From Thiomicrorhabdus sp. Milos-T2 (lineage in GTDB: Bacteria > Pseudomonadota > Gammaproteobacteria > Thiomicrospirales > Thiomicrospiraceae), in NCBI RefSeq assembly GCF_000702325.1, contig NZ_KL370891.1, positions 1,693,306-1,757,305 of the forward strand: a stretch of DNA of 64,000 bases, written 5' to 3'. A model generated the notes under the pieces. It did not search any database. It worked only from the letters and a program-made list of their open reading frames with translations, and had not been told where the DNA came from. A program made the translations under genes and the position numbers. Of the stretch, positions 6,932 through 60,854 are shown piece by piece; positions within the stretch are counted from its first letter, which is position 1, and the number at the start of each line of letters is the position of its first letter.

Positions 6932-7116
6932 GAGACCTTTGCACGAGTGGGGCGCGAAAGAAAAATGTGGTAAAAATTGTCTGATTTAGGCGAAAAGCGT
7001 AGCTAATAGCTAGCTATTGGCAAGTTGTCGCCCAACGGAAGTGCCCTTGGGGTACAACAACAATCAGGCGATTTTTAACCATTTTTATTCGTGCATCCGT
7101 CTCGTGCAAAGGTCTC
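6932..7116 (+). mobile_element. MITE copy A (185 bp, module 2)
   Basis: Ends are GAGACCTTTGCACGAG and CTCGTGCAAAGGTCTC, flanked by the 5-bp direct repeat TATGT (6927-6931 and 7117-7121). The central palindrome AATAGCTAGCTATT is present, and a 34-nt module-2 segment lies at 7025-7058. The right arm overlaps the 3' end of hisS and supplies its last codons. No transposase is encoded. Confidence 0.9.
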
Positions 7117-8374
7117 TATGTAAATGGCTAACCAACTCATCCCATTTAACAGTTTTCTGTTCAGCTTCTATTCGTAGAGACTTAATAGCCACTTCTTCAT
7201 TTTCAACCTCTTGCTCACCCATAACAATGGCAAAACTTGCTCCTGACTTATCGGCTTTTTTAAACTGGCTTTTAAAACTCCCTCCACCACAATTCATTTG
7301 CACATTAATCGCAGGAAAAGCATCTCTCAACATTTCGGAAATAACCAGGCCTGGTCTCGCCGTGTTTTCACCAACGGTAACAATGTATAAATCAGCTTGA
7401 GGTATAACAGGAATAAGCTCCTTATCTATAAGCAATGCCATTAAACGTTCTAACCCCATTGCAAAACCAACAGCAGGTGTTGTTTTACCGCCTATCTGTT
7501 CAACTAAGCCATCATAACGACCACCTGCACAAACTGTACCTTGAGCGCCTAATTCAGTGGTAACCCACTCAAATACTGTCCGATTATAATAATCTAAACC
7601 TCTTACTAAGTTAGGGTTCACAACATATGAAATTCCAAGATCATCAAGGTGAGATTTAACCGTTTCAAAGTGAATTTGTGACTCTTCATCAAGATGGTCA
7701 ATTAACTTTGGAGCACCCTCTACTAACGATGCCATATCAGGATTTTTAGTATCTAAAATTCTTAATGGATTACTTTCAAGCCTTCTTAAACTGTCTTCAT
7801 CCAAAGATTCTTTGTGCAAATTCAGATAATTCACTAACTTTTCACGATAAGCAATACGTGCTTCTTGACTTCCTAAAGAGTTAATTTGTAGTTCAAGGTT
7901 ATCTAAACCTAATTGATCCCATAAACGAGCCGTTAAAACAATGAGTTCTGCATCAATATCTGCTGTCGCTAAACCAAAAACCTCAACACCAAACTGATGA
8001 AATTGACGGTATCGTCCTTTTTGAGGTCTCTCATAGCGAAACATTGGGCCAGTATAGTAAAGTTTTTGAATTTGATTATGAGACAATCCATTCTGCACGA
8101 TTGCGCGAACACACCCCGCAGTCCCTTCTGGACGCAAGGTCAAACTTTCACCATTTCTATCGGCAAAGGTGTACATCTCTTTTTCAACAATATCCGTTAC
8201 TTCACCAATAGAACGTGCAAAAAGCTCAGTTTTTTCTACAATTGGCAAACGAATAGAATTAAAACCATATTGTTTTAATGTTCTTTCAGCGGTTGCAATA
8301 AGATAATCAAAGGCAACTGCCTCATCACCATATACATCATTCATACCTCTGATTGCTGAAATTTGTTTTGCCAT
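7085..8374 (-). CDS. hisS: Histidyl-tRNA synthetase
   Basis: HisRS is a class II synthetase that charges tRNA-His. The start is placed at the ATG at 8374 ([16 protein letters not shown]), because the 15 codons before it do not match the family. Visible motifs are RPEGTAG, motif 2 ([19 protein letters not shown]), the HisA motif GGRYDGL and motif 3 ([10 protein letters not shown]). At 429 aa it has near-normal length. The last ten residues ([10 protein letters not shown]) and the stop codon are encoded by inserted element A. Removing the element and one TSD copy would give a native ending of about SVFNA. ispG, normally upstream, is absent. Confidence 0.96.
7344..7355. repeat. ACCAGGCCTGGT palindrome, in hisS
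   Basis: Exact 12-mer. In hisS it is read in the frame CCA-GGC-CTG (Pro-Gly-Leu). See the genome-wide palindrome finding. Confidence 0.9.
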
Positions 8375-8434
8375 TATGTCTAATTCTCTTACTCTATTTA
8401 GTTTATTGAACGCTATCAATAAAGGATACTTGTT

Positions 8435-8711
8435 GAGACCTTTGTTCGAGAGGAAATCATGAGAAAAATTTTAACCGTTTTTACTCATAGAGACCTTTGC
8501 ACGAGATAGGTACGAAAGAAAAATGAGGTAAAATTTGCCTGATTCTCGACTTACCCCTTCGGGCGTCGAGTTCTTCGTTTGCGGCGGAAAACGCAGGGAA
8601 TAGCAAGCTATTCTCAAGGTTTTCAACAAAAAGCAGGTGAATTTTAACCATTTTTACTGGTACATACTCTCGTTCAAAGGTCTCTCATATATACTCTTAT
8701 AGAAAGGTCCT
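8435..8711 (+). mobile_element. Old, degraded MITE copy interrupted by copy B
   Basis: The left end GAGACCTTTGTTCGAG is followed by a large internal deletion and then right-arm sequence (TTTTAACCGTTTTTACTC) up to 8489. After copy B the right arm resumes (TATACTCTTATAGAAAGGTCC, 8690-8710), aligning with the consensus end. This is a nested insertion: copy B jumped into an older relative. Confidence 0.75.
8490..8684 (+). mobile_element. MITE copy B (195 bp, module 1)
   Basis: Perfect family ends with the 5-bp direct repeat TCATA on both sides (8485-8489 and 8685-8689). It carries the 36-nt module 1 at 8545-8580 (hairpin CTCGAC...GTCGAG) and lies where ispG would be expected, between rodZ and hisS. 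Confidence 0.9.
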
Positions 8712-13465: not shown

Positions 13466-13624
13466 GAGACCTTTGCACAAGAGTATGCACGAGTAAAAAT
13501 GGCTAAAATTCACCCGATTTATGTTGAAAAACTTGCGAATAGCTAGCTATTCCCTACGTTTTCCGCCGCAATCAGGCAAATTTTACCTCATTTTTCTTTC
13601 GCACCTATCTCGTGCAAAGGCCTC
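13466..13624 (-). mobile_element. MITE copy C (159 bp, base unit)
   Basis: Base-length copy in inverted orientation, with no modules. The direct repeat AAATT flanks both ends (13461-13465 and 13625-13629). The right end reads GGCCTC instead of GGTCTC. It lies upstream of trmJ and suhB. Confidence 0.9.
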
Positions 13625-17531: not shown

Positions 17532-17726
17532 GAGACCTTTGCACGAGATAGGTGCGAAAGAAAAATGAGGTAAAATCTGCCTGATTCTCGACTTACCCCT
17601 TCGGGCGTCGAGTTCTTTGTTTGCGGCGGAAAACGCAGGGAATAGCTAGCTATTCGCAAGTTTTTCAACAAAAATCGGGGGAATTTTAACCATTTTTACT
17701 CGTGCATACTCTCGTGCAAAGGTCTC
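17532..17726 (+). mobile_element. MITE copy D (195 bp, module 1)
   Basis: Flanked by ATTTA direct repeats (17527-17531 and 17727-17731). Module 1 is at 17587-17622. It occupies most of the 300-bp gap between leuA and pssA, directly upstream of the leuA start, so it may carry or disrupt the leuA promoter. Confidence 0.9.
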
Positions 17727-18768: not shown

Positions 18769-18813
18769 GAGACCTTTGCACCCAAGAGCATAAACACGAA
18801 ATAGGTGCGAAGG
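18769..18813 (+). repeat. MITE fragment (left end only)
   Basis: GAGACCTTTGCACC, an extra segment AAGAGCATAAACACG, then AATAGGTGCGAAG. The extra bases match, in reverse complement, the segment TTTACGCCCTTGGGTG in the end of the family-2 copy at 45846-45976. It is thus a fourth small module placed inside the terminal repeat. The rest of the element is lost. Confidence 0.65.
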
Positions 18814-19479: not shown

Positions 19480-19638
19480 GAGACCTTTACACGAGAGTAT
19501 GCGCGAGTAAAAATGGTTAAAATTCACCTGATTTTTGTTGAAAATCTTGTGAATAGCTAGCTATTCCCTGCGTTTTCCGCCGCAATCAGGCAAATTTTCC
19601 CTCATTTTTCTTTCGCACCTATCTCGTGAAAAGGTCTC
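19480..19638 (-). mobile_element. MITE copy F (159 bp, base unit)
   Basis: Inverted orientation, no modules, flanked by TATTA on both sides (19475-19479 and 19639-19643). The right-hand repeat contains the stop codon of the tusA-like gene. Confidence 0.9.
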
Positions 19639-19869: not shown

Positions 19870-20028
19870 GAGACCTTTACACGAGAGTATGAACGAATAA
19901 AAATGGTTAAAATTCACCTGCTTTTTGTTGATAAACTTGAGAATAGCTAGCTATTCCCTGCGTTTTCCGCCGCAACCAGGAAAATTTTCCCTCATTTTTA
20001 TTTCGCACCTATATCGAGTAAAGGTCTC
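19870..20028 (-). mobile_element. MITE copy G (159 bp, base unit)
   Basis: Same orientation as copy F. Flanks are TAATT (19865-19869) and AAATT (20029-20033), four of five bases matching. Together with F it brackets the tusA-like gene. Confidence 0.85.
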
Positions 20029-24040: not shown

Positions 24041-24224
24041 GAGACCTTTGCACGAGATAGGCGCGAAAGAAAAATGAGGAAAAATTTGCCTGATTGCGGC
24101 GGAAAACGCAGGGAATAGCTAGCTATTCGCAAGTTGTCGCCCAACGGAAGTGCCCTTGGGGTGCAACAAAAATCAGGTGAATTTTAACCATTTTTATTCG
24201 TGCATACTCTCGTGCAAAGGTCTC
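24041..24224 (+). mobile_element. MITE copy H (184 bp, module 2)
   Basis: Flanked by TTAAT direct repeats (24036-24040 and 24225-24229). Module 2 lies at 24134-24167 and modules 1 and 3 are absent, which defines 159+25 bp. It is located between the terminators of soxA and the terB-like gene. Confidence 0.9.
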
Positions 24225-27997: not shown

Positions 27998-28642
27998 ATG
28001 AGCAAAGTGACTCAAATCAAAGACCGTTTTCGCGGTTTTTTACCGGTAGTAGTTGACGTAGAAACTGCTGGATTTAACCATCATACTGATGCCTTATTAG
28101 AAATGGCCGTTGTTACCTTAAAAATGGATGAAAACGGCAATCTTTCTCGTGATCAGAGCTATGAAAAAAATATCCTGCCATTTGAGGGAGCAAACCTAGA
28201 AGAAAATGCTTTAAAATTTATTGGAATGGAAGACCCGTACCACCCTTTTAGAAAGGCTGTTAATGAAAAACGCGCTTTAACAGAATTATTTACACCGATT
28301 CAACAACAAGTAAAAGCTACTGGTTGCACCCGTGCTATTTTGGTTGGACATAATGCTTTTTTTGACCTTAATTTTGTTCAAAAGGCGGCTGAACGTTGCA
28401 AAATTAAGTCGCCATTTCATGAATTTAGTACCTTTGATACCGTATCGCTGTCAGGTTTAGCTTATGGGCAAACCGTCTTAGCTAAAGCCGCTGCGTGCGC
28501 TGGAATGGAGTGGGACAACAACCTTGCTCACACAGCTGTTTATGACACTGAAAAAACAGCGGATTTGTTTTGTGAGATCGTTAATCAATGGCCTATAGAA
28601 AACAATAAATCTGAAGACAACAAATCAGAAAATTCTAAATAA
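27998..28642 (+). CDS. rnt: Ribonuclease T
   Basis: RNase T is a DEDD 3'-5' exoribonuclease that trims tRNA, 5S and 23S rRNA. The Exo motifs are VVDVETAGFN (Exo I), HNAFFDLNF (Exo II) and HTAVYDTEKTADLF (Exo III). At 214 aa it is normal, with a short Asn/Ser/Glu-rich tail. It is linked to argA and followed by an ACCAGGCCTGGT palindrome and a bidirectional terminator. Confidence 0.95.
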   Translation: MSKVTQIKDRFRGFLPVVVDVETAGFNHHTDALLEMAVVTLKMDENGNLSRDQSYEKNILPFEGANLEENALKFIGMEDPYHPFRKAVNEKRALTELFTPIQQQVKATGCTRAILVGHNAFFDLNFVQKAAERCKIKSPFHEFSTFDTVSLSGLAYGQTVLAKAAACAGMEWDNNLAHTAVYDTEKTADLFCEIVNQWPIENNKSEDNKSENSK

Positions 28643-28664
28643 AAAACTTAAATTTCATCAAGTT

Positions 28665-28676
28665 ACCAGGCCTGGT
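28665..28676. repeat. ACCAGGCCTGGT palindrome, downstream of rnt
   Basis: Exact 12-mer with one further symmetric base pair (T...A), 23 bp after the rnt stop codon. Confidence 0.9.
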
Positions 28677-28743
28677 AGTTTGAATATTTTCTAAGAGACT
28701 TTGCTCAAATCTATACTAAGTTAACGCTCCCATTAGTAATAAA

Positions 28744-29235: not shown

Positions 29236-29439
29236 GAGACCTTTTCACGAGATAGGTGCGAAAGAAAAATGAGGTAAAATTGACCTGGTTGCGGCGGAAA
29301 GCGAAGGGAATAGCTAGCTATTCCCAAGTTGTCGCCCAACGGAAGTGCCCTTGGGGTACAACAAAAATCAGGTGAATTTTTACCCTCAAGGGGCACCTAG
29401 AACCATTTTTACTCGTGCATACTTTCGTGCAAAGTTCTC
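29236..29439 (+). mobile_element. MITE copy I (204 bp, modules 2 and 3)
   Basis: Flanks AATAT and AGTAT match at four of five bases. Module 2 is at 29329-29362 and module 3 at 29381-29400 in the right arm. The right end is slightly decayed (AAAGTTCTC). It abuts the stop codon of the downstream asparagine-synthase-family gene. Confidence 0.88.
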
Positions 29440-32419: not shown

Positions 32420-34618
32420 GTGAAAGCCCCGATTTTTTTTAGAAAATCTATACGATTTTATTTTGCTTTTTTTCTTATCTTTGGCGTTACCCTTCTCTTA
32501 GTCGTAAACTTAGCTTTATATAATCAAGGACTAAATATTAGAGAAACGGTTCAAAAGCAATCAATATTACAAGCTGAAAATGAACTCTTAAAGACATTAA
32601 GCGTCTCTCTCAATCAATTACAAAAAGAAGCGTCATCACTTGCAGAATGGGATGAGGTTCATCAACAATTTCATGATCCTAGCTATTACTTTTTTTGGCA
32701 TGATGAACGATTAAAAGAAAGTGGGTTTTTCAAACCCTATTATGATGATTTAGAACTTTATAAAACTAATAAAAAACTTTTAACTCCTGCTTCACCTGAT
32801 GCAAAACAACATTTCTTTCTCCCTGATGAAATTAAATCAACCCAGCCAACTCTTGTTTTTACTAAAAACTTTGAAGTACATCTCAATATCTTCCAAGAGA
32901 TAAAAAGCCGAGATTCTGAGAATACCATTGGTTACGTGGGTATCTCTCTTGACTTCTTATCGTATTTATTAAACACCAAAACTTTTTATTACCTAGACAA
33001 GTCCAGTATTAACTTATATGGAAGTGGTTCCGTTCCCTACTCGGAGATAATGCAACATATTCATTTCAAACCAGTTTCAAATCCGGTTAATGATTACCTT
33101 TGGCAACTCATTCAAGACTTTATTATCGAATTAATCATCATCATGTTAATTGTCAGTTTGATTTTAACGTTCTTTTTTAACATCACCATTTATCAACCTT
33201 TACAAATCATATCTAGTTACCTCCTACGTTTAAAAAACTCACCAAAAAAGACGCACCCTTTACCAAAAGAAACCTTTCTTCTTTCTGAACTAGATGAGCT
33301 AAAAAACTCACTTCATGATTATCATCGAGATTTGTTTAAAGTCCAAAATGAATTAGATAAACAAAACCAAGCCGTGTGGGACCAAGCACGTCGAGATGTA
33401 TTAACTAACATTTACAATCGACGAGCTTTTGATGAGGCTTGGAATGAAACCGTTAGCCAGCATGAGAAAACCCCTTCTTTAACCGCCTTTATGCTATTTG
33501 ATTGTGACTTTTTTAAAGCATTAAATGATACCTATGGGCATGAAGTGGGTGATGAGGTCATTAAACTTACCGCAGCGACTATTCAGCAGAGCCTTCCCCT
33601 TGATTGCCCTGCCTATCGTATTGGCGGCGACGAATTTGCCGTCATATTAAAAGAGAGAACCCCTGAAGAAACTATCAACATTGCTCAACATTGTTTAATT
33701 GCTTTAAATGAGGCTCCTTACAACCGTGTAGGGGTAAAAGAAACTCTTACCTTTAGTGTAGGAATTAGTAGCACCTTGGAAGATTTAACTAATGAAATCA
33801 CAAACCTTCCCAGACAAGCTGATATGGCGATGTATAAAGCCAAACAATCGCTCAATGAAAAAGTTCAATGCTACCATCACAGTTTAGATTATGAATCTCT
33901 ATCTTTAGTCTCTAATAATATTGTCAACACGGTTGTGAATGCGATTCATAACGGATCTGGAATTCAGATGCACTACCAACCAATTAAATCTATTAATAGT
34001 CAAAAAGTTTATTATGAATCACTAATTCGTATAAAACAGGATGAAGGTATCATTTATCCAAATGATATTTTTGCAGTAGTAAATCGTCGCCGATTAGAAG
34101 TTGAACTTGATCAACAAGTTATAACTTGCGTTCTACATGCTCTGCAAAACAATGAAATCCCCAAAGATACTGGCGTTTCAATCAACGTATCAGGAAAAAC
34201 CTTATTACAAGCCAACTTTTGTGAACTATTTACTCCCTTTATCCCCTTTTTAGAAAAGTATAAAATTGTTATTGAGGTTACTGAAAATAGCTTAATCGAT
34301 CATATGGACTACGCCCAAAAGGCCTTAAATTCGCTCCGTAAAGAGGGTTTTTTAATTGCCTTGGATGATTTTGGAAGTGGCTACTCCTCCATTCGATATC
34401 TAGCACACATGCCCGTTGATATTGTTAAATATGATATGAGTATGACCAATTCCCTAATGGGGAAAGACGTTCGGACACATAATATTTTAAAAACGACTGC
34501 TGAAATGATTATAGAGTCAGGATACGATTTGGTGATGGAAGGTGTAGAAACCGAAGAAATGCTAGAGGCTGTTCGTGAAGCGGGGGGCAACTCATATTCA
34601 AGGTTATTTAATTGGTAA
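32420..34618 (+). CDS. Membrane GGDEF-EAL protein, frameshifted near the C-terminus
   Basis: This c-di-GMP turnover protein has TM segments at about residues 14-34 and 230-255 around a periplasmic sensor region, then GGDEF (motif YRIGGDEFAV) and EAL domains. The EAL signature reads ESL but keeps its glutamate. NVSGKTLL, EVTENSL, LDDFGSGYSS and EGVET are present. No RxxD inhibitory site precedes GGDEF. The frame ends early after REAGGNSYSRLFNW. Removing one G from the six-G run at 34582-34587 restores HIQGYLIGKPVPIPE, ending at 34646. GTG start at 32420. Confidence 0.88.
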   Translation: MKAPIFFRKSIRFYFAFFLIFGVTLLLVVNLALYNQGLNIRETVQKQSILQAENELLKTLSVSLNQLQKEASSLAEWDEVHQQFHDPSYYFFWHDERLKESGFFKPYYDDLELYKTNKKLLTPASPDAKQHFFLPDEIKSTQPTLVFTKNFEVHLNIFQEIKSRDSENTIGYVGISLDFLSYLLNTKTFYYLDKSSINLYGSGSVPYSEIMQHIHFKPVSNPVNDYLWQLIQDFIIELIIIMLIVSLILTFFFNITIYQPLQIISSYLLRLKNSPKKTHPLPKETFLLSELDELKNSLHDYHRDLFKVQNELDKQNQAVWDQARRDVLTNIYNRRAFDEAWNETVSQHEKTPSLTAFMLFDCDFFKALNDTYGHEVGDEVIKLTAATIQQSLPLDCPAYRIGGDEFAVILKERTPEETINIAQHCLIALNEAPYNRVGVKETLTFSVGISSTLEDLTNEITNLPRQADMAMYKAKQSLNEKVQCYHHSLDYESLSLVSNNIVNTVVNAIHNGSGIQMHYQPIKSINSQKVYYESLIRIKQDEGIIYPNDIFAVVNRRRLEVELDQQVITCVLHALQNNEIPKDTGVSINVSGKTLLQANFCELFTPFIPFLEKYKIVIEVTENSLIDHMDYAQKALNSLRKEGFLIALDDFGSGYSSIRYLAHMPVDIVKYDMSMTNSLMGKDVRTHNILKTTAEMIIESGYDLVMEGVETEEMLEAVREAGGNSYSRLFNW

Positions 34619-34673
34619 ACCAGTACCAATACCTGAAACGGTTTAATTCTTTAAAAGCTTTTATTGACCTTTA

Positions 34674-34913
34674 GAGACCTTTGCACGAGATAGGTGCGAA
34701 AGAAAAATAGGCGTAAGTACCCCTTGAGGGTAAAAAATTTGCCTGATTCTCGACTTACCCCTTCGGGCGTCGAGTTCTTCGTTTGCGGCGGAAAACGCAG
34801 GGAATAGCTAGCTATTCGCAAGTTGTCGCCCAACGGAAGTGCCCTTGGGGTACAACAAAAATCAGGTGAATGTTAACCATTTTTATTCGTGCATACTCTC
34901 GTGCAAAGGTCTC
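34674..34913 (+). mobile_element. MITE copy J (240 bp, modules 1+2+3)
   Basis: The longest copy, flanked by CTTTA on both sides (34669-34673 and 34914-34918). It has module 3 in the left arm (about 34710-34731), module 1 at 34749-34784 and module 2 at 34823-34856. Its length equals 159+36+25+20. It ends 22 bp before coaE and therefore forms its upstream region. Confidence 0.92.
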
Positions 34914-34935
34914 CTTTAATTTAAAGTAAATAGTT

Positions 34936-35541
34936 ATGACAAAAGTAATCGGTTTAACAGGGGGGATTGGTTCTGGGAAATCAACTGTATCTCAATACCT
35001 ATTACAAAACAATATTCCCGTCATAGACACCGATATTATCGCCAGACAAATAGTAGAACCAAATTCTACTGGGCTAAACCAAGTTATTGACTTGTTTGGC
35101 GCAACCTTCTTAAACTCTGATGGCAGCCTAAATCGACCTTTATTACGCAATAAAATCTTCAACGACCCACAAGCTAAATCCGCATTAGAGTCGCTATTAC
35201 ACCCTTTAATTCAAGCAGAAACCCTTAAACAGATTCAATACTTTAAAAAACAGCAACAGCCATACATCTTTATCGCTATTCCTTTACTTGTTGAAGGGAT
35301 TCTCAAAAAAGGCACCAGGCCTGGTTATATCGATGAGATTTGGGTGGTTGACTGTCCTGTTGAAAAACAACTGCAACAAGCTAGCCAAAGAGATAACAGT
35401 GACGTAAATCAGATTCAAAAAATCATCAATCAACAAGCCTCACGACAGCAAAGATTAGTACATGCAGATAAGGTCATATCAAATACGAGTTCTATCCAAG
35501 AACTGTTAGAACAAACACAAAGCTTAATTCAAAAAATTTAA
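34936..35541 (+). CDS. coaE: Dephospho-CoA kinase
   Basis: CoaE performs the last step of coenzyme A synthesis. The P-loop is in GLTGGIGSGKST (about residues 6-17). D-T-D-I-I-A-R (about 32-38) and the FxDPxAxxxLExLLHP block are present. At 201 aa it is normal. It converges on the mutT-thiE gene with no bases between the stop codons. Element J forms its immediate upstream DNA. Confidence 0.96.
   Translation: MTKVIGLTGGIGSGKSTVSQYLLQNNIPVIDTDIIARQIVEPNSTGLNQVIDLFGATFLNSDGSLNRPLLRNKIFNDPQAKSALESLLHPLIQAETLKQIQYFKKQQQPYIFIAIPLLVEGILKKGTRPGYIDEIWVVDCPVEKQLQQASQRDNSDVNQIQKIINQQASRQQRLVHADKVISNTSSIQELLEQTQSLIQKI
35314..35325. repeat. ACCAGGCCTGGT palindrome, in coaE
   Basis: Exact 12-mer, read as ACC-AGG-CCT-GGT (Thr-Arg-Pro-Gly), a different frame from the copies in hisS and secA. 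Confidence 0.9.
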
Positions 35542-36749: not shown

Positions 36750-36836
36750 TTAATTTTTACAATACTGGATAATCAATCACAAAATAAGGATACGCAAATT
36801 TCAAAGCCAGGGTCAAAATTGAATTAAAGCGAATCA

Positions 36837-36846
36837 CCAGGCCTGG
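36837..36846. repeat. Left target duplication of the IS4 element (CCAGGCCTGG)
   Basis: Identical to 38145-38154. The outer bases (A on the left, T on the right) rebuild ACCAGGCCTGGT after excision, within a 20-bp palindrome AATCACCAGGCCTGGTGATT. Confidence 0.85.
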
Positions 36847-38144
36847 CACTAGTGTCCGGAATAATATTTCAGTACCACAATTCATATACCAGCCTCCCAT
36901 AGCGGAAGTTGGTATTTCTTAAACTCTTCCCGTTGTTGTTTTCGCCTAAAGTATTCACTCTGCTGAATAGGTCTTTCAAACAACCCATGAGCAAGCCGCC
37001 AAAACGTTACTCTCAACGGTTCTGCTGACTTATTTTTCATCTGTTCAAGCTTAATCAATAGATACACAATAAGGGCTGATAGCACTTGGATACGAACAGC
37101 ATTACTGTTTTGGCCAATGAAGCTTTTGATTTTGAGGTGTTGTTTAATCCATTTAAAAAATAATTCAATTTGCCAGCGTTGCTTGTATAGATGGGCAATC
37201 TCTTGAGCTGAACGCTCGAAGTCATTGGTAATCAATACCAATTCACCTTTATTATCGTCACGTTTGACAACAACACGGCGCATCTGGAATTGACCAAGAC
37301 GTTTTTTCTGGCTTGAACCACTAAACTCAATGCATTGGTCTTCAAGAATATGAGGGGCTTTTTCATCGAGTTCGTAGGATTGTATGACGGTAATTGCCGC
37401 TCTTTTTTTCAAACGACAGACCAGCTTGATTTTTTGGTCATTGAGCTTTTTCCACCAGAGGTAGTCTAAGTACCCTTTATCCATCACATAGGTTGAACCT
37501 GGTTCTAAATTCCACTCTCGTGCTTGAGTAATATCAGGAATATTGGCCTGTGTGATTTCAAAACAAACAGGGACTTGGTTGGATAGTTCTAGTTGCATAT
37601 GCAGCTTAAAGCCTGTGACTCGAGAACCTTGTACTGCCCAGTCAAAACCTTTACCGAGCAGTTGAATTGGAGAAGAGTCTATTAGATAGGTAAAAGCGTG
37701 GAGTTCTTTTCGTAATTGTCGATTCACACCAGCCATGAGTTGTTGGCAAAGTGCTTGGTAGACATCAGCAGAGCGTTTACGGTTTGCTTCAGATAATGTG
37801 CTGCGTTTCAGCTCTTTTACGCCTAAGTGGTAGTGGTGAGAGGATTGGGCGTTAAACCCTTCAACCAACTGGCGTAATGATTTAGTGCCACTAAGTTGTG
37901 CGTACATCATCGCGACTAATTGATTCCAGCTACTAAACCCTTTGGCGTGTTTATCGGTTTGATATTGATGAACAAGTGATTGAAAAGTGGTACGAATGGG
38001 TTTTAAAAATTGGGCAAATCGGGTAGAGTTAAACATAGCCGTAATCTCATTGTTTTTGAAGTCTATTTCGTGGTGGAAATACTTCTATCCTAGGAGTTAC
38101 GGCTTTTTTGTCAAGGCTTTTAATATTTATTCCGGACACTAGTG
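36847..38144 (-). mobile_element. IS4-family insertion sequence (1298 bp)
   Basis: Perfect 18-bp terminal inverted repeats CACTAGTGTCCGGAATAA enclose one transposase gene. The element is flanked by a 10-bp duplication CCAGGCCTGG (36837-36846 and 38145-38154); duplications of 9-13 bp are normal for IS4. It appears intact and possibly recent. It separates mutT-thiE from hisC. Confidence 0.93.
36882..38036 (-). CDS. IS4-family transposase
   Basis: The 384-aa DDE transposase has an N-terminal domain of the DUF4372 type (MFNSTRFAQFLKPIR). Catalytic aspartates are in LIDSSPIQL (about residue 118) and YVMDKGYLD (about 184). The IS4 YREK signature Y-x2-R-x3-E-x6-K is complete in YKQRWQIELFFKWIK. No frameshift or stop is seen, so it is predicted active. 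Confidence 0.95.
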   Translation of the reverse strand: MFNSTRFAQFLKPIRTTFQSLVHQYQTDKHAKGFSSWNQLVAMMYAQLSGTKSLRQLVEGFNAQSSHHYHLGVKELKRSTLSEANRKRSADVYQALCQQLMAGVNRQLRKELHAFTYLIDSSPIQLLGKGFDWAVQGSRVTGFKLHMQLELSNQVPVCFEITQANIPDITQAREWNLEPGSTYVMDKGYLDYLWWKKLNDQKIKLVCRLKKRAAITVIQSYELDEKAPHILEDQCIEFSGSSQKKRLGQFQMRRVVVKRDDNKGELVLITNDFERSAQEIAHLYKQRWQIELFFKWIKQHLKIKSFIGQNSNAVRIQVLSALIVYLLIKLEQMKNKSAEPLRVTFWRLAHGLFERPIQQSEYFRRKQQREEFKKYQLPLWEAGI

Positions 38145-38154
38145 CCAGGCCTGG
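38145..38154. repeat. Right target duplication of the IS4 element (CCAGGCCTGG)
   Basis: Pairs with 36837-36846. The right flank TGATT complements the left flank AATCA, so the pre-insertion target was a symmetric palindrome. Confidence 0.85.
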
Positions 38155-38187
38155 TGATTTAAGGTAAAATATTAAATTCTAATAATT

Positions 38188-44145: not shown

Positions 44146-44303
44146 GAGACCTTTGCACGAGAGTATGTACGAGTAAAATGGTTAAAACTCACCTTATTTT
44201 TGTTGTAAAACTTGCGAATAGCTAGCTATTCCCTGCATTTTCCGCCGCAATAAGGTAAATTTTTCCTCATTTTTCTTTCGCACCTATCTCGTGCAAAGGT
44301 CTC
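44146..44303 (-). mobile_element. MITE copy K (158 bp, base unit)
   Basis: Inverted orientation, no modules, flanked by ATATT on both sides (44141-44145 and 44304-44308). It lies between the convergent dciA and lpxC genes. Confidence 0.9.
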
Positions 44304-45422: not shown

Positions 45423-45836
45423 AAAAGCTTAGATTTAATCAGACTACATCGATTGAGAAGCCTTTTAAAATATTAGCCTTTGCCTTAAATTTTATCACTC
45501 AGGCTTCCCGTTACTTTTTGCAATTTGGCAAAAAAGTAACCAAAAAACAAACCCCACTCCATAAATGGGCAAGTTCTAAGCTTGTGAACTGAAAACGCTG
45601 AACTCGCTGCGCTCAAACGAAGAACTCGGCTGTAGAGACGAGAAACAGCAGCGTTTTTTTACCGTTCACTACACTAAGAACTTTGCACCATTTATTACAA
45701 GGGGAGTTAAGGCGTTTACCCAAGCTACAATATTGAGCTTCACAAAATTAAAAAAATAACTCAAATCTAATAGTGAATTTTTATCAAGCTAGGTTAATCA
45801 TTAACTGATGTTTTGTCAGATTAAGTTTAATTTTTT
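45423..45836 (+). repeat. Long intergenic repeat, copy 1 (about 414 bp)
   Basis: Nearly the same sequence occurs at 60358-60799. It has imperfect inverted termini (about 17 of 22 bases, e.g. TTTAATCAGAC / GTCTGATT-like), an internal hairpin GTTACTTTTTGC / GCAAAAAAGTAAC, and a second one AACGCTG...CAGCGTTTTTTT that looks like a terminator. A hairpin module (45615-45642) resembles module 1 of the MITEs. No plausible reading frame. Confidence 0.8.
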
Positions 45837-45845
45837 TCACTTAAA

Positions 45846-45976
45846 AAGACCTTTGCAAGAGTCGATGAATGGTTAAACAGGCCTTAATTCCCTATCTTAA
45901 GCTTAAAAAATTTTTGCCTTTTTTCTTACATTCCAGTCTCGTGTTTACGCCCTTGGGTGCAAAGGTCAAAGGTCTC
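45846..45976 (+). mobile_element. Family-2 MITE copy L (131 bp)
   Basis: Ends AAGACCTTTGCAAGAG and AAGGTCTC, flanked by perfect TTAAA repeats (45841-45845 and 45977-45981). The right end contains an additional segment TTTACGCCCTTGGGTG. The right TSD supplies the ftsA stop codon position. Confidence 0.8.
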
Positions 45977-50388: not shown

Positions 50389-50498
50389 GAGACCTTTGCA
50401 AGCGTCGATGAATGCATAAAAAAGGCGGTAATTCTCTAACTTCAGTCTAAAGAATTCTTGCACTTTTTTCTTACATCCTAGACTCGTATAAAGGTCTC
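50389..50498 (+). mobile_element. Family-2 MITE copy M (110 bp)
   Basis: The shortest complete family-2 copy: GAGACCTTTGCAAG... to ...TATAAAGGTCTC, flanked by perfect ATTGA repeats (50384-50388 and 50499-50503). It has no internal hairpin insert and so defines the family-2 base unit. Confidence 0.88.
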
Positions 50499-51020: not shown

Positions 51021-51091
51021 GGAACTAATATGCCACAAAAAACTAAATAAAAAACAGAATTTAAAGGAAATAAAAAAACATTTATTAAGCT

Positions 51092-51103
51092 ACCAGGCCT
51101 GGT
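51092..51103. repeat. ACCAGGCCTGGT within a 22-bp palindrome
   Basis: Perfect arms AAGCT / AGCTT extend the core on both sides (51087-51108), between sufS and the hypothetical gene. It could form a cruciform or a terminator. Confidence 0.9.
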
Positions 51104-51142
51104 AGCTTGAATTGAATATCGACTCTTAGCGTTTAAATAATA

Positions 51143-56456: not shown

Positions 56457-57269
56457 TTAGCTCTTTGAGGCATCAACAAGTTGCTTTAACCAGGCCTGGT
56501 CAAGTTTGATACCACTAATTTCAATCTTTCCAATATCACCACTCAGAATACTCTCATCGGCGGCGAAGGTATCCCAGCGGTATGGTGTCCCTTCAATTTC
56601 GACTAAATTGGCATACTCTAGGGTTTTTACCACCGCTTTAACCCGCGTAATTTGCATACCTAAATTTTGACGAGAAGAATCTAAGCCCATTAATAAATGT
56701 TCCAAAACAATACGTTCAACTTGAAAACAAAAGGTTTCTAACTCTAGTGATTGAGTCGACTGCGATTCATTTTGTGAATCTTTTGCTTTAGATGAAGCGG
56801 CAACAAAACCCTTAAAACTTACTGGCAAACTTTGATTTAAAAATCGAACAACCGGTTTTTTAACATCGAGTTCAGCATGATTTGTCAGCCATTGATTCCA
56901 CCAGGCCTGGTCATCTAAAGATGCTGATTCCGTAAAGGTAAACACAATACCATCTGCAACCATTAACATTTTCTTTAAACTTTCTTCAAGCCATTCAGAA
57001 TTATTCTTTGGAAGAGGATTACGCACGTCTATCAGCAACCAAAAGGTTTGATTACATTGCTTTTGAGGTAAATTTAAAAAATCGTTCCACTCAAAACAAC
57101 CAGGCCTGGTAGTTTTTTCACTGTATTGTGCTTTGCTAAGATCTATATTCGCCATGGTTTGATTTAAATTTATACAATCAAACTGCTTATGCAAATTACT
57201 TGCAACTCGTGATTTACCCGAACCAGGTAAACCTAGCAAAACAATATTTTGAGTATTAAGACTATTCAT
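56457..57269 (-). CDS. P-loop NTPase in the znuA transcript, unknown function
   Basis: This 270-aa protein has a Walker A at residues 13-20 (GLPGSGKS) and no clear GTPase NKxD motif (VRFLNQSL lies near that position). The protein looks like a small GTPase or CobW-like metal chaperone, but I cannot place it in a family. The start overlaps the end of znuA by 8 bp, so it is coupled to the zinc-binding gene and may help deliver or sense zinc. It contains three ACCAGGCCTGGT palindromes, the highest density in the window. Confidence 0.65.
   Translation of the reverse strand: MNSLNTQNIVLLGLPGSGKSRVASNLHKQFDCINLNQTMANIDLSKAQYSEKTTRPGCFEWNDFLNLPQKQCNQTFWLLIDVRNPLPKNNSEWLEESLKKMLMVADGIVFTFTESASLDDQAWWNQWLTNHAELDVKKPVVRFLNQSLPVSFKGFVAASSKAKDSQNESQSTQSLELETFCFQVERIVLEHLLMGLDSSRQNLGMQITRVKAVVKTLEYANLVEIEGTPYRWDTFAADESILSGDIGKIEISGIKLDQAWLKQLVDASKS
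56489..56500. repeat. ACCAGGCCTGGT palindrome, in the P-loop gene (1)
   Basis: Exact 12-mer, read as Asp-Gln-Ala-Trp-Leu (QAW frame). Confidence 0.9.
56900..56911. repeat. ACCAGGCCTGGT palindrome, in the P-loop gene (2)
   Basis: Exact 12-mer, read as Asp-Gln-Ala-Trp-Trp (QAW frame). Confidence 0.9.
57099..57110. repeat. ACCAGGCCTGGT palindrome, in the P-loop gene (3)
   Basis: Exact 12-mer, read as Thr-Arg-Pro-Gly (TRPG frame), different from the other two copies in the same gene. Confidence 0.9.
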
Positions 57270-58395
57270 TATTTTGGGTTAAGCAATCACTAAACTCACG
57301 ACTGAGTTGAATCATGAACTGGTCATAATTCATAAAATTTTGGTGGTTCTTTTGCTGAAATTCAGTACTGACTATTCCCATAGGATCTAAACTACCTACG
57401 TTAATCGTCAACCCTCGTGTCACTGCCAAAACCCGCTTTTCTGGAAACTGTGGCTCTTTAAAAACACATTTAACTGCGCCCTTTTTAATTCTAGCGCGTA
57501 TATCAGCAACCCGCTTTAAACTCGGAAAAATTGACGGGTTAAGCTGAATAGAACCAACGCCTTTTAGACCATACTCTTTTTCAAAATATTGGTAAGCATC
57601 ATGCAACACCAGGTAAGGTTCATTTTTTACCAATTTTAATTGCTGTTTAATAGTATTGTGAGTCTGCTGTAGTTTATTTAACCAGGCCTGGGAAGCGTGT
57701 TTAATCTGTTCTGTTTGATTCGGTTTTAACTGCTGAAGTTGCTGTGAAACTGCCTTAACTAATAATAAACTGTTTTTGTAGGACATCCATAAATGCCCAT
57801 CCATACTTGTCGCATTTTCTTCAATTGCGTGATGATTATGTTGCTGTGCATGTTCCTGTTCGTGTTCTTCATGTTCATGTTGATCATGTTCAGCCTCTTC
57901 TGAAGCCTCATGATGGTGATGATGAACTTCCCATAAACCTCCACTTCTAACGGGATAAGTTTCAATGCCAGCAATTTTTGCTAAATCCACATTAGTTTTC
58001 TCTAAATTGGTCACCGTTTTCTGCATCCAGCTATCTACCGGCGAACCCACCCAAACAATTAAATCACTCGTTTGCAGACGCCTTAAATCAGAGGGTTTAA
58101 GCTGATAACCATGTGGACTAGCACCCGGTTTTAAAATAACAGAGAGATGATCATTTTCATCTAATAAGGGCGCTATAATTCCTGCCAAGGGTGGAATAGA
58201 GACCGTAATATTTATGGCATAAACGGATACGCTTACAAATGGTAGCGTTAATAATAAAAGAAGTGACGCGGCTTGTTTTGCAGTTTGCTTTTTCATAGCC
58301 TGACTAAGCTTTTTTAACCCTGTAAAGACATCTAGTATCATCTCAGTAAATTCTTTTCGTACTTTATAGATTAAACTCGATAAAATATTCAACAT
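57262..58395 (-). CDS. znuA: Zinc ABC transporter substrate-binding protein ZnuA
   Basis: ZnuA binds periplasmic zinc and delivers it to ZnuB. The start is probably the ATG at 58395, which has AAGGA 9 bp upstream; the ATG at 58296 (MKKQTAKQAASLLLLL) is the alternative that begins the signal peptide directly. Cluster A-1 features are VSIPPLAGIIAPLL and PGASPHGYQLKPSDL, and a long His/Glu-rich loop (HHHHHEASEEAEHDQHEHEE) is typical of high-affinity zinc binders. The 5' part of the longer open frame comes from an inserted element. It is coupled to the P-loop gene. Confidence 0.93.
   Translation of the reverse strand: MLNILSSLIYKVRKEFTEMILDVFTGLKKLSQAMKKQTAKQAASLLLLLTLPFVSVSVYAINITVSIPPLAGIIAPLLDENDHLSVILKPGASPHGYQLKPSDLRRLQTSDLIVWVGSPVDSWMQKTVTNLEKTNVDLAKIAGIETYPVRSGGLWEVHHHHHEASEEAEHDQHEHEEHEQEHAQQHNHHAIEENATSMDGHLWMSYKNSLLLVKAVSQQLQQLKPNQTEQIKHASQAWLNKLQQTHNTIKQQLKLVKNEPYLVLHDAYQYFEKEYGLKGVGSIQLNPSIFPSLKRVADIRARIKKGAVKCVFKEPQFPEKRVLAVTRGLTINVGSLDPMGIVSTEFQQKNHQNFMNYDQFMIQLSREFSDCLTQNNE
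57681..57692. repeat. ACCAGGCCTGGG palindrome variant, in znuA
   Basis: Eleven of twelve bases match. Read as Ser-Gln-Ala-Trp-Leu (QAW frame). Confidence 0.8.
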
Positions 58396-58423
58396 AATTT
58401 TATTCCTTGCCTTCCAGCAGATT

Positions 58424-58570
58424 GATAGTTTTGCACGAGTATGGCGCGAAAGAAAAATGCGGTAAAAGCTGTCTGATTTCATTGAAAAACTTACTAATTG
58501 CTAGTTTTTCAATGAAAGAAGGTCTTTTTTAGCCTCTTTTATTCGTATAAACGCCTCTTGCAAAGCTATC
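58424..58570 (+). mobile_element. MITE-like element in the znuA/znuC divergent region (147 bp)
   Basis: Ends GATAGTTTTGCACGAG and CTCTTGCAAAGCTATC are diverged from GAGACC but clearly related. AGATT flanks both sides perfectly (58419-58423 and 58571-58575). It keeps the interior motif GGTAAAAGCTGTCTGATT but has a different centre. It sits between the znuA and znuC starts, so it must influence their promoters. Confidence 0.8.
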
Positions 58571-60357: not shown

Positions 60358-60799
60358 AAAAACTTAGATTTAATCAGACAGTACAGCGGTTGAGAAGCCT
60401 TTTTAAATATTAGCCTTTGTCTTAAACTTTGTCACTCAGGCTTCCCGTTACTTTTTGCAGTTTGGCAAAAAGTAACCAAACGAAGAACTTGGCTGCAGAG
60501 ACAAGAAAAAACAAACCCCACTCCATAAATGGGCAAGTTCTAAGCTTGTGAACTGAAAACGCTGAACTCGCTGCGCTCAAACGAAGAACTCGGCTGTAGA
60601 GACGAGAAACAGCAGCGTTTTTTTACCGTTAACTACACTAAGAACCTTGCACCATTTATTACAAGGGGACTTATGGGGTTTGTCCAAGCTTCAATATTAG
60701 GCATCAAAAAAGTGGAAAATAACTCAAATCTGATAATGAATTTTTATCAAGTTAGATTAGTAATTAACTACTGTCTTGTCAGATTAAGTTTAATTTTTT
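60358..60799 (+). repeat. Long intergenic repeat, copy 2 (about 442 bp)
   Basis: Near-identical to 45423-45836 plus an extra 28 bp. The extra segment at 60478-60505 is a hairpin module that duplicates the copy's own module at 60579-60606. Inverted termini are imperfect. No reading frame supports a protein. It lies between znuB and the chemoreceptor gene. Confidence 0.85.
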
Positions 60800-60854
60800 A
60801 CATCTAAGCCCATACAATTCAAGCTTAAACAATTCGATCTTGCACACTCAAAGC

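Follow-up and report, generated by a model that had tools for sequence, protein, structure and literature searches.

Hairpin modules at fixed points of a Thiomicrorhabdus MITE family as probable nested elements exchanged among copies

Copy J and its relatives in the window

The region analysed is a 64,000-nucleotide stretch (the window, to which all plain coordinates refer) of the genome of Thiomicrorhabdus sp. Milos-T2, a sulfur oxidiser of the Thiomicrorhabdus group, which is 2.65 Mb in two contigs. Copy J lies in it between an ORF that ends at 34618 and reads like a GGDEF/EAL protein and one that starts at 34936 and reads like CoaE, both assigned by eye. No ORF of 100 aa or more is found inside copy J. 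The repeat unit is a non-coding 159-bp palindromic MITE with 16-bp TIRs of sequence GAGACCTTTGCACGAG, a palindromic centre and 5-bp target duplications (TSDs), and it is a MITE by its TIRs, its TSDs and the absence of coding. The parts of copy J and the other copies of this family in the window are as follows.

34674..34913, + strand: copy J, a 240-bp MITE with modules 3L, 1 and 2, and TIRs at both ends
34669-34673 and 34914-34918: CTTTA flanks of copy J, the target duplication
34674..34689, + strand: left TIR of copy J (GAGACCTTTGCACGAG)
34709..34733, + strand: module 3 in the left arm of copy J, 25 nt replacing 5 nt (net +20)
34749..34784, + strand: module 1 of copy J, a 36-bp hairpin CTCGAC..GTCGAG with the tail TTCTTCGTTT
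34803..34816, no strand: palindromic centre of copy J, AATAGCTAGCTATT
34825..34852, + strand: module 2 of copy J, 28 nt replacing TTT (net +25)
34898..34913, + strand: right TIR of copy J
6932..7116, + strand: MITE copy, 185 bp, with module 2 (7027-7054)
8490..8684, + strand: MITE copy, 195 bp, with module 1 (8545-8580)
13466..13624, - strand: unmodified MITE copy, 159 bp
17532..17726, + strand: MITE copy, 195 bp, with module 1 (17587-17622)
19480..19638, - strand: unmodified MITE copy, 159 bp
19870..20028, - strand: unmodified MITE copy, 159 bp
24041..24224, + strand: MITE copy, 184 bp, with module 2 (24136-24163)
29236..29439, + strand: MITE copy, 204 bp, with module 2 (29331-29358) and module 3 in the right arm (29381-29402)
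44146..44303, - strand: unmodified MITE copy, 158 bp

These measurements bear out the lengths given in the initial annotation of this DNA, namely 158-159 bp for unmodified copies (159 at 13466, 19480 and 19870, 158 at 44146), 195 bp with module 1 (8490 and 17532), 184-185 bp with module 2 (185 at 6932, 184 at 24041), 204 bp with modules 2 and 3 (29236, where module 3 occupies the mirror position of the right arm) and 240 bp for copy J, in which the TIRs, all three modules and CTTTA on either side were located. Twelve TIR-bounded elements are listed in the window. Ten belong to the 159-bp family; of the other two, the element at 58424-58570 is a decayed copy and that at 50389-50498 a shorter relative. 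By eye, the target duplication agrees at 5/5 positions in ten of the twelve and at 4/5 in two. Single-strand folding is far stronger than in shuffled sequences for copy J (z = -8.4) and for an unmodified copy (z = -8.9), which is what a long imperfect palindrome would be expected to show. Two ORFs overlap elements of this kind: that at 7085-8419 (- strand, reads like hisS) stops inside a MITE copy (overlap 7085-7116), and that at 57262-58482 (- strand), as listed, starts inside the decayed MITE (overlap 58424-58482).

Genome-wide, the TIR with up to 2 mismatches matches 235 times in forward and 236 times in reverse orientation, and the reversed control gives 0 and 0; the MITE family is present in hundreds of copies in one genome. 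An IS4-family transposase (PF01609 with DUF4372) at 36882-38036 was considered as the sole mobiliser of the MITE and set aside, as its ends (around ACTAGTGTCCGGAATAA, by eye) seem unlike the MITE TIR. A recurrent ACCAGGCCTGGT-like palindrome occurs at 28619-28685, 51046-51112, about 36836-36850 and 38142-38160, and is also found beside the ends of this IS and in other loci.

Module slots and element lengths across the genome

Out of about 235 elements, 173 TIR-bounded ones were collected by a rule allowing no more than 8 mismatches over both 16-bp ends. TSD agreement, which also served for choosing between candidate ends, is 5/5 in 104 of these and 4/5 in 43 (147 at 4/5 or better). Four slots could be parsed in 155 elements, while the other 18 are decayed or belong to other families. 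Exclusion of one misparsed copy, C1:1571304, leaves 154; that copy is still included in the linkage (r2) and backbone-tree analyses described below. TSDs of at least 4/5 flank 133 of the 154.

Each slot is either short or long with almost nothing between. The slot of module 3 in the left arm (3L) has about 5 or 25 nt, that of module 1 has 0 or 36, that of module 2 has 3 or 28, and that of module 3 in the right arm (3R) has 2 or 22. A fifth module of 16 bp, module 0, lies inside the left TIR in 15 copies. Element length equals 159 + 36 + 25 + 20 + 20 (+16) within 1 nt in 152 of the 154 parsed copies and exactly in 136, the two exceptions being C1:725264 and C1:1990475. Lengths are therefore discrete, as had been proposed, and do not form a continuum. 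The additive scheme itself stands as far as the sums are concerned and needs amending in two respects: modules 2 and 3L replace sequence instead of being cleanly inserted (module 2 puts 28 nt in place of 3, a gain of 25, and module 3L puts 25 nt in place of 5, a gain of 20), and there is a module more than it had allowed for.

Among the 154 copies, 14 of the 16 possible four-slot combinations and 23 of the 32 five-slot combinations are found, and all four slots are filled in 13 copies. Module patterns were among the means of locating elements, and the module frequencies are overestimates for that reason. All four presence/absence states are seen for all ten module pairs. Odds ratios exceed 1 for every pair, with p < 0.05 in nine of the ten, and the 0000 and 1111 states are commoner than under independence. 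Unmodified 159-bp copies are found in other species too, as are, in the elements read there, modules 2 and 3L at the same MITE points, which makes these two modules old within the family.

Hairpins within and outside the MITE

The module 1 pattern is found at 40 places in the window genome and at none in controls. All 40 are at one point of the MITE (35 inside called elements, 5 read by eye), so a single insertion of module 1 would suffice for this genome. With up to 3 mismatches, module 1 occurs in 11 of 32 genomes of the genus, including its own (controls 0), and in 31 stretches of named GTDB records, among them T. marina, T. cannonii, Hydrogenovibrio halophilus and Thiomicrospira WB1; the named records are Thiomicrorhabdus, Hydrogenovibrio and Thiomicrospira, and one MAG filed as Thiotrichales. 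A broader class pattern, in which two positions of the stem may vary on either side, hits 100 times in 14 of the 32 genus genomes and never in the reversed control. By reading, the stems are complementary in 94 of the 100, with 1 wobble and 5 mismatches, although 38 of the 100 come from the window genome and are mostly inherited copies. In a class-wide sample of 369 genomes only the window genome has the pattern; three relatives sampled with it, one from the genus and two more from the family, were negative. Two matches in viral contigs have imperfect stems and look by eye like chance.

Class hairpins are 27-38 bp long and consist of a short loop closed by a 6-7 bp stem (one strand reading, for example, CTCGAC, CTCGGC or CTTGGC), followed by the tail TTCTTYGTTT. 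Among 105 chosen by canonical stems, total length is 27-28 bp in 33 and 35-38 bp in 72; 64 carry the tail TTCTTCGTTT and 21 the tail TTCTTTGTTT. After collapsing flank sites, T precedes the hairpin at 41 of 43 and C or G follows it at 42 of 43, giving a target after TT(T).

Contexts in other genomes differ from the single point occupied by module 1 at home. From 13 other genus genomes, 53 distinct contexts of class hairpins were examined; in 35 of them, spread over 9 genomes, neither a TIR-like end nor a MITE centre lies within 260 nt. Four are at the right-arm point, one is near a TIR and one is at the same point as in copy J (genome G001; the class hairpin is also at this point in H. halophilus locus L280). 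The remaining 12, from the 47 filed as other, have a one- or two-sided TIR-like match or a centre nearby, and at least five of them are MITE copies: four rows from G016 are right-arm copies cut by contig ends, and one from G018 has both ends. Three loci of G009 and one of G007 that carry module 1 show no MITE end. In T. cannonii module 1 occupies the mirror point on the right arm of this MITE family, in MAG 354-166 it lies beside the TIR, and JE_KL2 has two copies of it in tandem. In H. halophilus module 1 interrupts a repeat whose sister copies carry the empty site CTTRTTTTCACAAGG. One MITE fragment of the window genome (G000:C1:195592, L129) has a 27-bp short-form hairpin at the right-arm point beside a module-0-like stretch, and is unlike the common copies. 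In the G016 draft many short contigs begin or end in the MITE right arm, which suggests that this assembly is broken at near-identical MITE copies.

A second repeat family, present in the window at about 45445-45844 and 60382-60807, carries class hairpins as well.

45615..45642, - strand: module-1-class hairpin, 28 bp, with one stem mismatch, in the second repeat family
60478..60505, - strand: 28-bp hairpin of the module 1 class in the other window copy of this family; the sister copy is empty there (45542)
60579..60606, - strand: module-1-class hairpin, 28 bp, at the same site as 45615-45642

The repeat spacings of 14937 and 14964 fit a filled site at 60478-60505 and an empty site in the sister copy. 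Eight copies of the family were aligned (a ninth row, L225, is unrelated and was left out), and filled and empty states can be compared at two sites in the window genome. The difference is +28 at each, and nothing is duplicated beyond A-runs. Empty sites in sibling repeats thus show no target duplication. The micro-duplications that had been looked for at module edges are absent or only 2-3 nt long: TT at module 1 and CAC at module 0, and none at module 3R. They were rejected as TSDs because at other sites the left flank is TGT or TTG and the right end is a constant GTTT.

Module 2 behaves similarly. With one mismatch allowed, its pattern is found at 23 places in 10 of 31 other genus genomes. 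Its contexts in other species are MITE-like, defined as a MITE centre within 50 nt upstream, in 10 of 22 and not in 12. In the window genome it is present in 2 of the 8 aligned copies of the second repeat family, and in one of these (L002) it is 28 nt replacing 3, the same geometry as in the MITE. Module 3, in the window genome and the loci read, is in MITE sequence except for one weak match in a gene. Module 0 was seen at 26 places in the stretches read. Called elements contain 16 of them; by eye, the others belong to further MITE copies or to elements sharing the TIR. With one mismatch it also occurs within the TIR-like ends of other, shorter elements at 18779-18798 and 45940-45959, and similarly at G000:C1:1267252, and a minimal element of TIR, module 0 and TIR is found near C1:226674. 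As to whether modules occur alone elsewhere, the module 1 class and module 2 do, and modules 3 and 0, in the window genome and the stretches read, were seen in elements with the MITE type of TIR, apart from the weak module 3 match.

Judged from these sequence contexts, module 1 belongs to a hairpin class that probably moves on its own, and module 2, found in MITE and non-MITE settings alike, is probably a second such element. At least these two hairpins look like very small mobile elements themselves.

Ancestry, exchange and mechanism

Divergence from the consensus over full-length slots is 13 of 1260 bases for module 1 and 10 of 1012 for module 3R (1.0%), against 57 of 1960 (2.9%) for module 2, 18 of 475 (3.8%) for 3L and 3.1% for the backbone. 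Poisson chances of the low values of modules 1 and 3R are 1e-6 and 8e-6. The least variable backbone stretches of 36 bp and 22 bp are at 1.8% and 1.5%, so the lower divergence of the two modules may in part be constraint.

A backbone tree, of low divergence, was built without the module columns. Module 1 requires 36 changes on it for 37 copies, compared with a mean of 33.3 for shuffled labels, and the other four modules are likewise shuffle-like. Backbone SNPs left out in turn cluster in 6 of 7 cases, with 0-7 of 200 shuffles reaching the observed count; SNP 88 does not. On these low-divergence trees, module states do not follow the ancestry of the backbone. This points to exchange among copies, and we read it as modules that move between copies or that arrived after the copies had diverged. 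Linkage among 7 backbone SNPs and 5 modules has a mean r2 of 0.01-0.05 per distance bin with no significant decay (Spearman -0.15, p 0.23; 120 of 1000 permutations), and flank diversity around module 1 shows no clear drop in module-bearing copies. With no linkage decay and no visible conversion tract, exchange is not directly demonstrated.

The reading preferred here, to which we give a probability of about three in four, is that two layers of mobile DNA are present, a MITE and tiny hairpin elements that were nested inside it and then exchanged among its copies. The outer layer, evident from its anatomy, is the 159-bp MITE, presumably moved in trans by a transposase. The inner layer would consist of very small hairpin elements inserted into it, those of the module 1 class being found after TT(T) and before C or G at three points of the MITE family, in other repeats, in other sequence and in tandem. 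Inside the MITE of the window genome, gene conversion or template switching would then carry modules from one copy to another, which would account for 14 of 16 combinations on backbones whose relationships do not follow module content. Both parts of the original proposal are carried forward in this reading: nested insertion agrees with the module 1 class away from the MITE or at its other points in other genomes and with module 2 outside it, and module exchange with the four states of all ten pairs and with module states no more clustered on the backbone tree than shuffled labels.

How the hairpins might be inserted can be suggested only tentatively. Single-strand insertion of the IS200/IS605 type is put forward because the hairpin carries a 3′ GTTT end of its own that resembles the target and because it is kept in form more than in letters. 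Two traits of IS200/IS605-type insertion are found, no target duplication at empty sites and a fixed short target 5′ of the hairpin. The placement of insertion points in loops of the folded MITE is mixed, and predicted pairing gives no clean placement. Nor is the Y1_Tnp domain (PF01797) associated with the hairpins: 8 of the 14 genomes that have the class pattern encode it, and so do 13 of the 18 that lack the pattern. No class hairpin was found at five scanned Y1 loci (L307, L326, L308, L309 and L327) within the flanks examined. The only Y1 candidates found in the window genome are RAYT-like genes, which there and in T. marina score 72.7-78 bits against NCBIfam NF047646, just under the cut-off of 80.

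Four other explanations were weighed against nested insertion and exchange. The least improbable, though still rather unlikely, is a single insertion of each module into a source element, with several sources amplified and no exchange. It would account for the excess of 0000 and 1111 over independence, for odds ratios above 1 in all ten pairs (p < 0.05 in nine) and for the 36-bp module 1 lying at a single point in the window genome. However, copies sharing a module do not share a backbone history (the 36 changes for 37 module-1 copies against 33.3 in shuffles), 6 of the 7 left-out backbone SNPs do cluster where modules do not, and every pair of modules is found in all four combinations. An ancestral MITE with all hairpins, from which shorter copies arose by independent precise deletion during replication, is quite improbable. 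In its favour, hairpins are in general easily deleted, all four slots are filled in 13 of the 154 copies, and modules 2 and 3L occupy unchanged points in the elements read from other species and so are old within the family. Yet the module 1 class is at different MITE points and away from the MITE in other genomes, unmodified 159-bp copies are present in other species as well, slippage would not turn the replacements at 2 and 3L into one exact empty sequence, and modules 1 and 3R, with about a third of the backbone mutations, look younger.

It seems improbable that the hairpins are true REP elements, mobilised by the RAYT genes which these genomes encode. Their size and palindromy match, some REP families are described as sitting inside palindromes in the available part of PMC3733652, and RAYT-like genes are present in the window genome and T. 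marina, but a GTAG or CGTC tag is within 8 nt of only 1 and 2 of 109 hairpins respectively, the five scanned Y1 loci lack the hairpin and there is no presence/absence association. Selection of the modules as RNA elements, for example as processing sites or terminators in read-through transcripts, is very unlikely. Stable predicted folds (z = -8.4 for copy J) and complementary stems in 94 of 100 class hits would fit it, but class hairpins are in many other contexts and in tandem, the window has no Rfam match at gathering scores, and recognition of single-stranded or cruciform DNA would equally give complementary stems.

A further reading, which we consider less likely than not, would make the MITE family a combinatorial library of hairpin cassettes. 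On this reading the 25-38 bp hairpins are a lineage-specific class (Thiomicrorhabdus, Hydrogenovibrio) among the smallest mobile DNA, with a TT^S target, their own 3′ tail and no linked transposase, riding inside MITEs and other repeats and passed as cassettes between MITE copies. The hairpins bear on an open question, the movement of 20-40 bp palindromes without a visible transposase; how CGTC REPs move remains open according to the abstract of PMC3733652. In this genome and its relatives, many sibling repeats either have or lack the same hairpin at defined points, so that empty sites, a target rule and varied complementary stems are at hand, and these make both mechanism and exchange testable.

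A review of prokaryotic MITEs (PMC10969869) has no mention of nested, modular, mosaic or hairpin. Among the open-licence papers listed in searches, none was seen to describe these elements, and none links Thiomicrorhabdus with miniature inverted repeats. The hairpins seem closest in kind to the very small mobile repeats known from cyanobacteria. The small dispersed repeats there, SDR5 for instance, reportedly treated by Elhai et al. in 2008, are said to be very small imperfect palindromes that were judged mobile and lie inside other repeats. They differ from the hairpins described here in sequence and lineage. The latter fall into two classes, in one of which the stems vary but stay complementary, the tail is constant and the target is TT^S, and they occupy a MITE combinatorially. 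The REP/BIME/RAYT system, as far as it is covered in the available part of PMC3733652, is alike in its 20-40 bp palindromes, a size range that includes the class hairpins (27-38 bp with the tail), and in having some families inside palindromic targets. Unlike it, the hairpins have no GTAG or CGTC tag and no linked RAYT was found, and they carry the constant 3′ tail TTCTTYGTTT instead. Correia/NEMIS of Neisseria is a MITE that occurs at about 107 bp and, with a further 50-bp internal sequence, at about 155 bp (available part of PMC2229807). Its one internal segment, which is not described there as moving alone, compares with five independent slots in the present MITE. Pneumococcal BOX elements are modular small repeats with variable modules, in a genome where repeats are inserted into one another, but the modules form a tandem boxB array according to the accessible sections of PMC3049150, whereas the MITE holds single, different hairpins at fixed separate points. 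Mobile hairpins of mitochondria, the double-hairpin elements of fungi and the RHEs of sponges, insert at many places and also in tandem, and those of Allomyces lack a flanking duplication; in the portion of PMC2800124 that could be consulted they belong to organelle genomes, have different sequences and are not seen nested in a MITE, whereas the hairpins of Thiomicrorhabdus are bacterial and MITE-nested.
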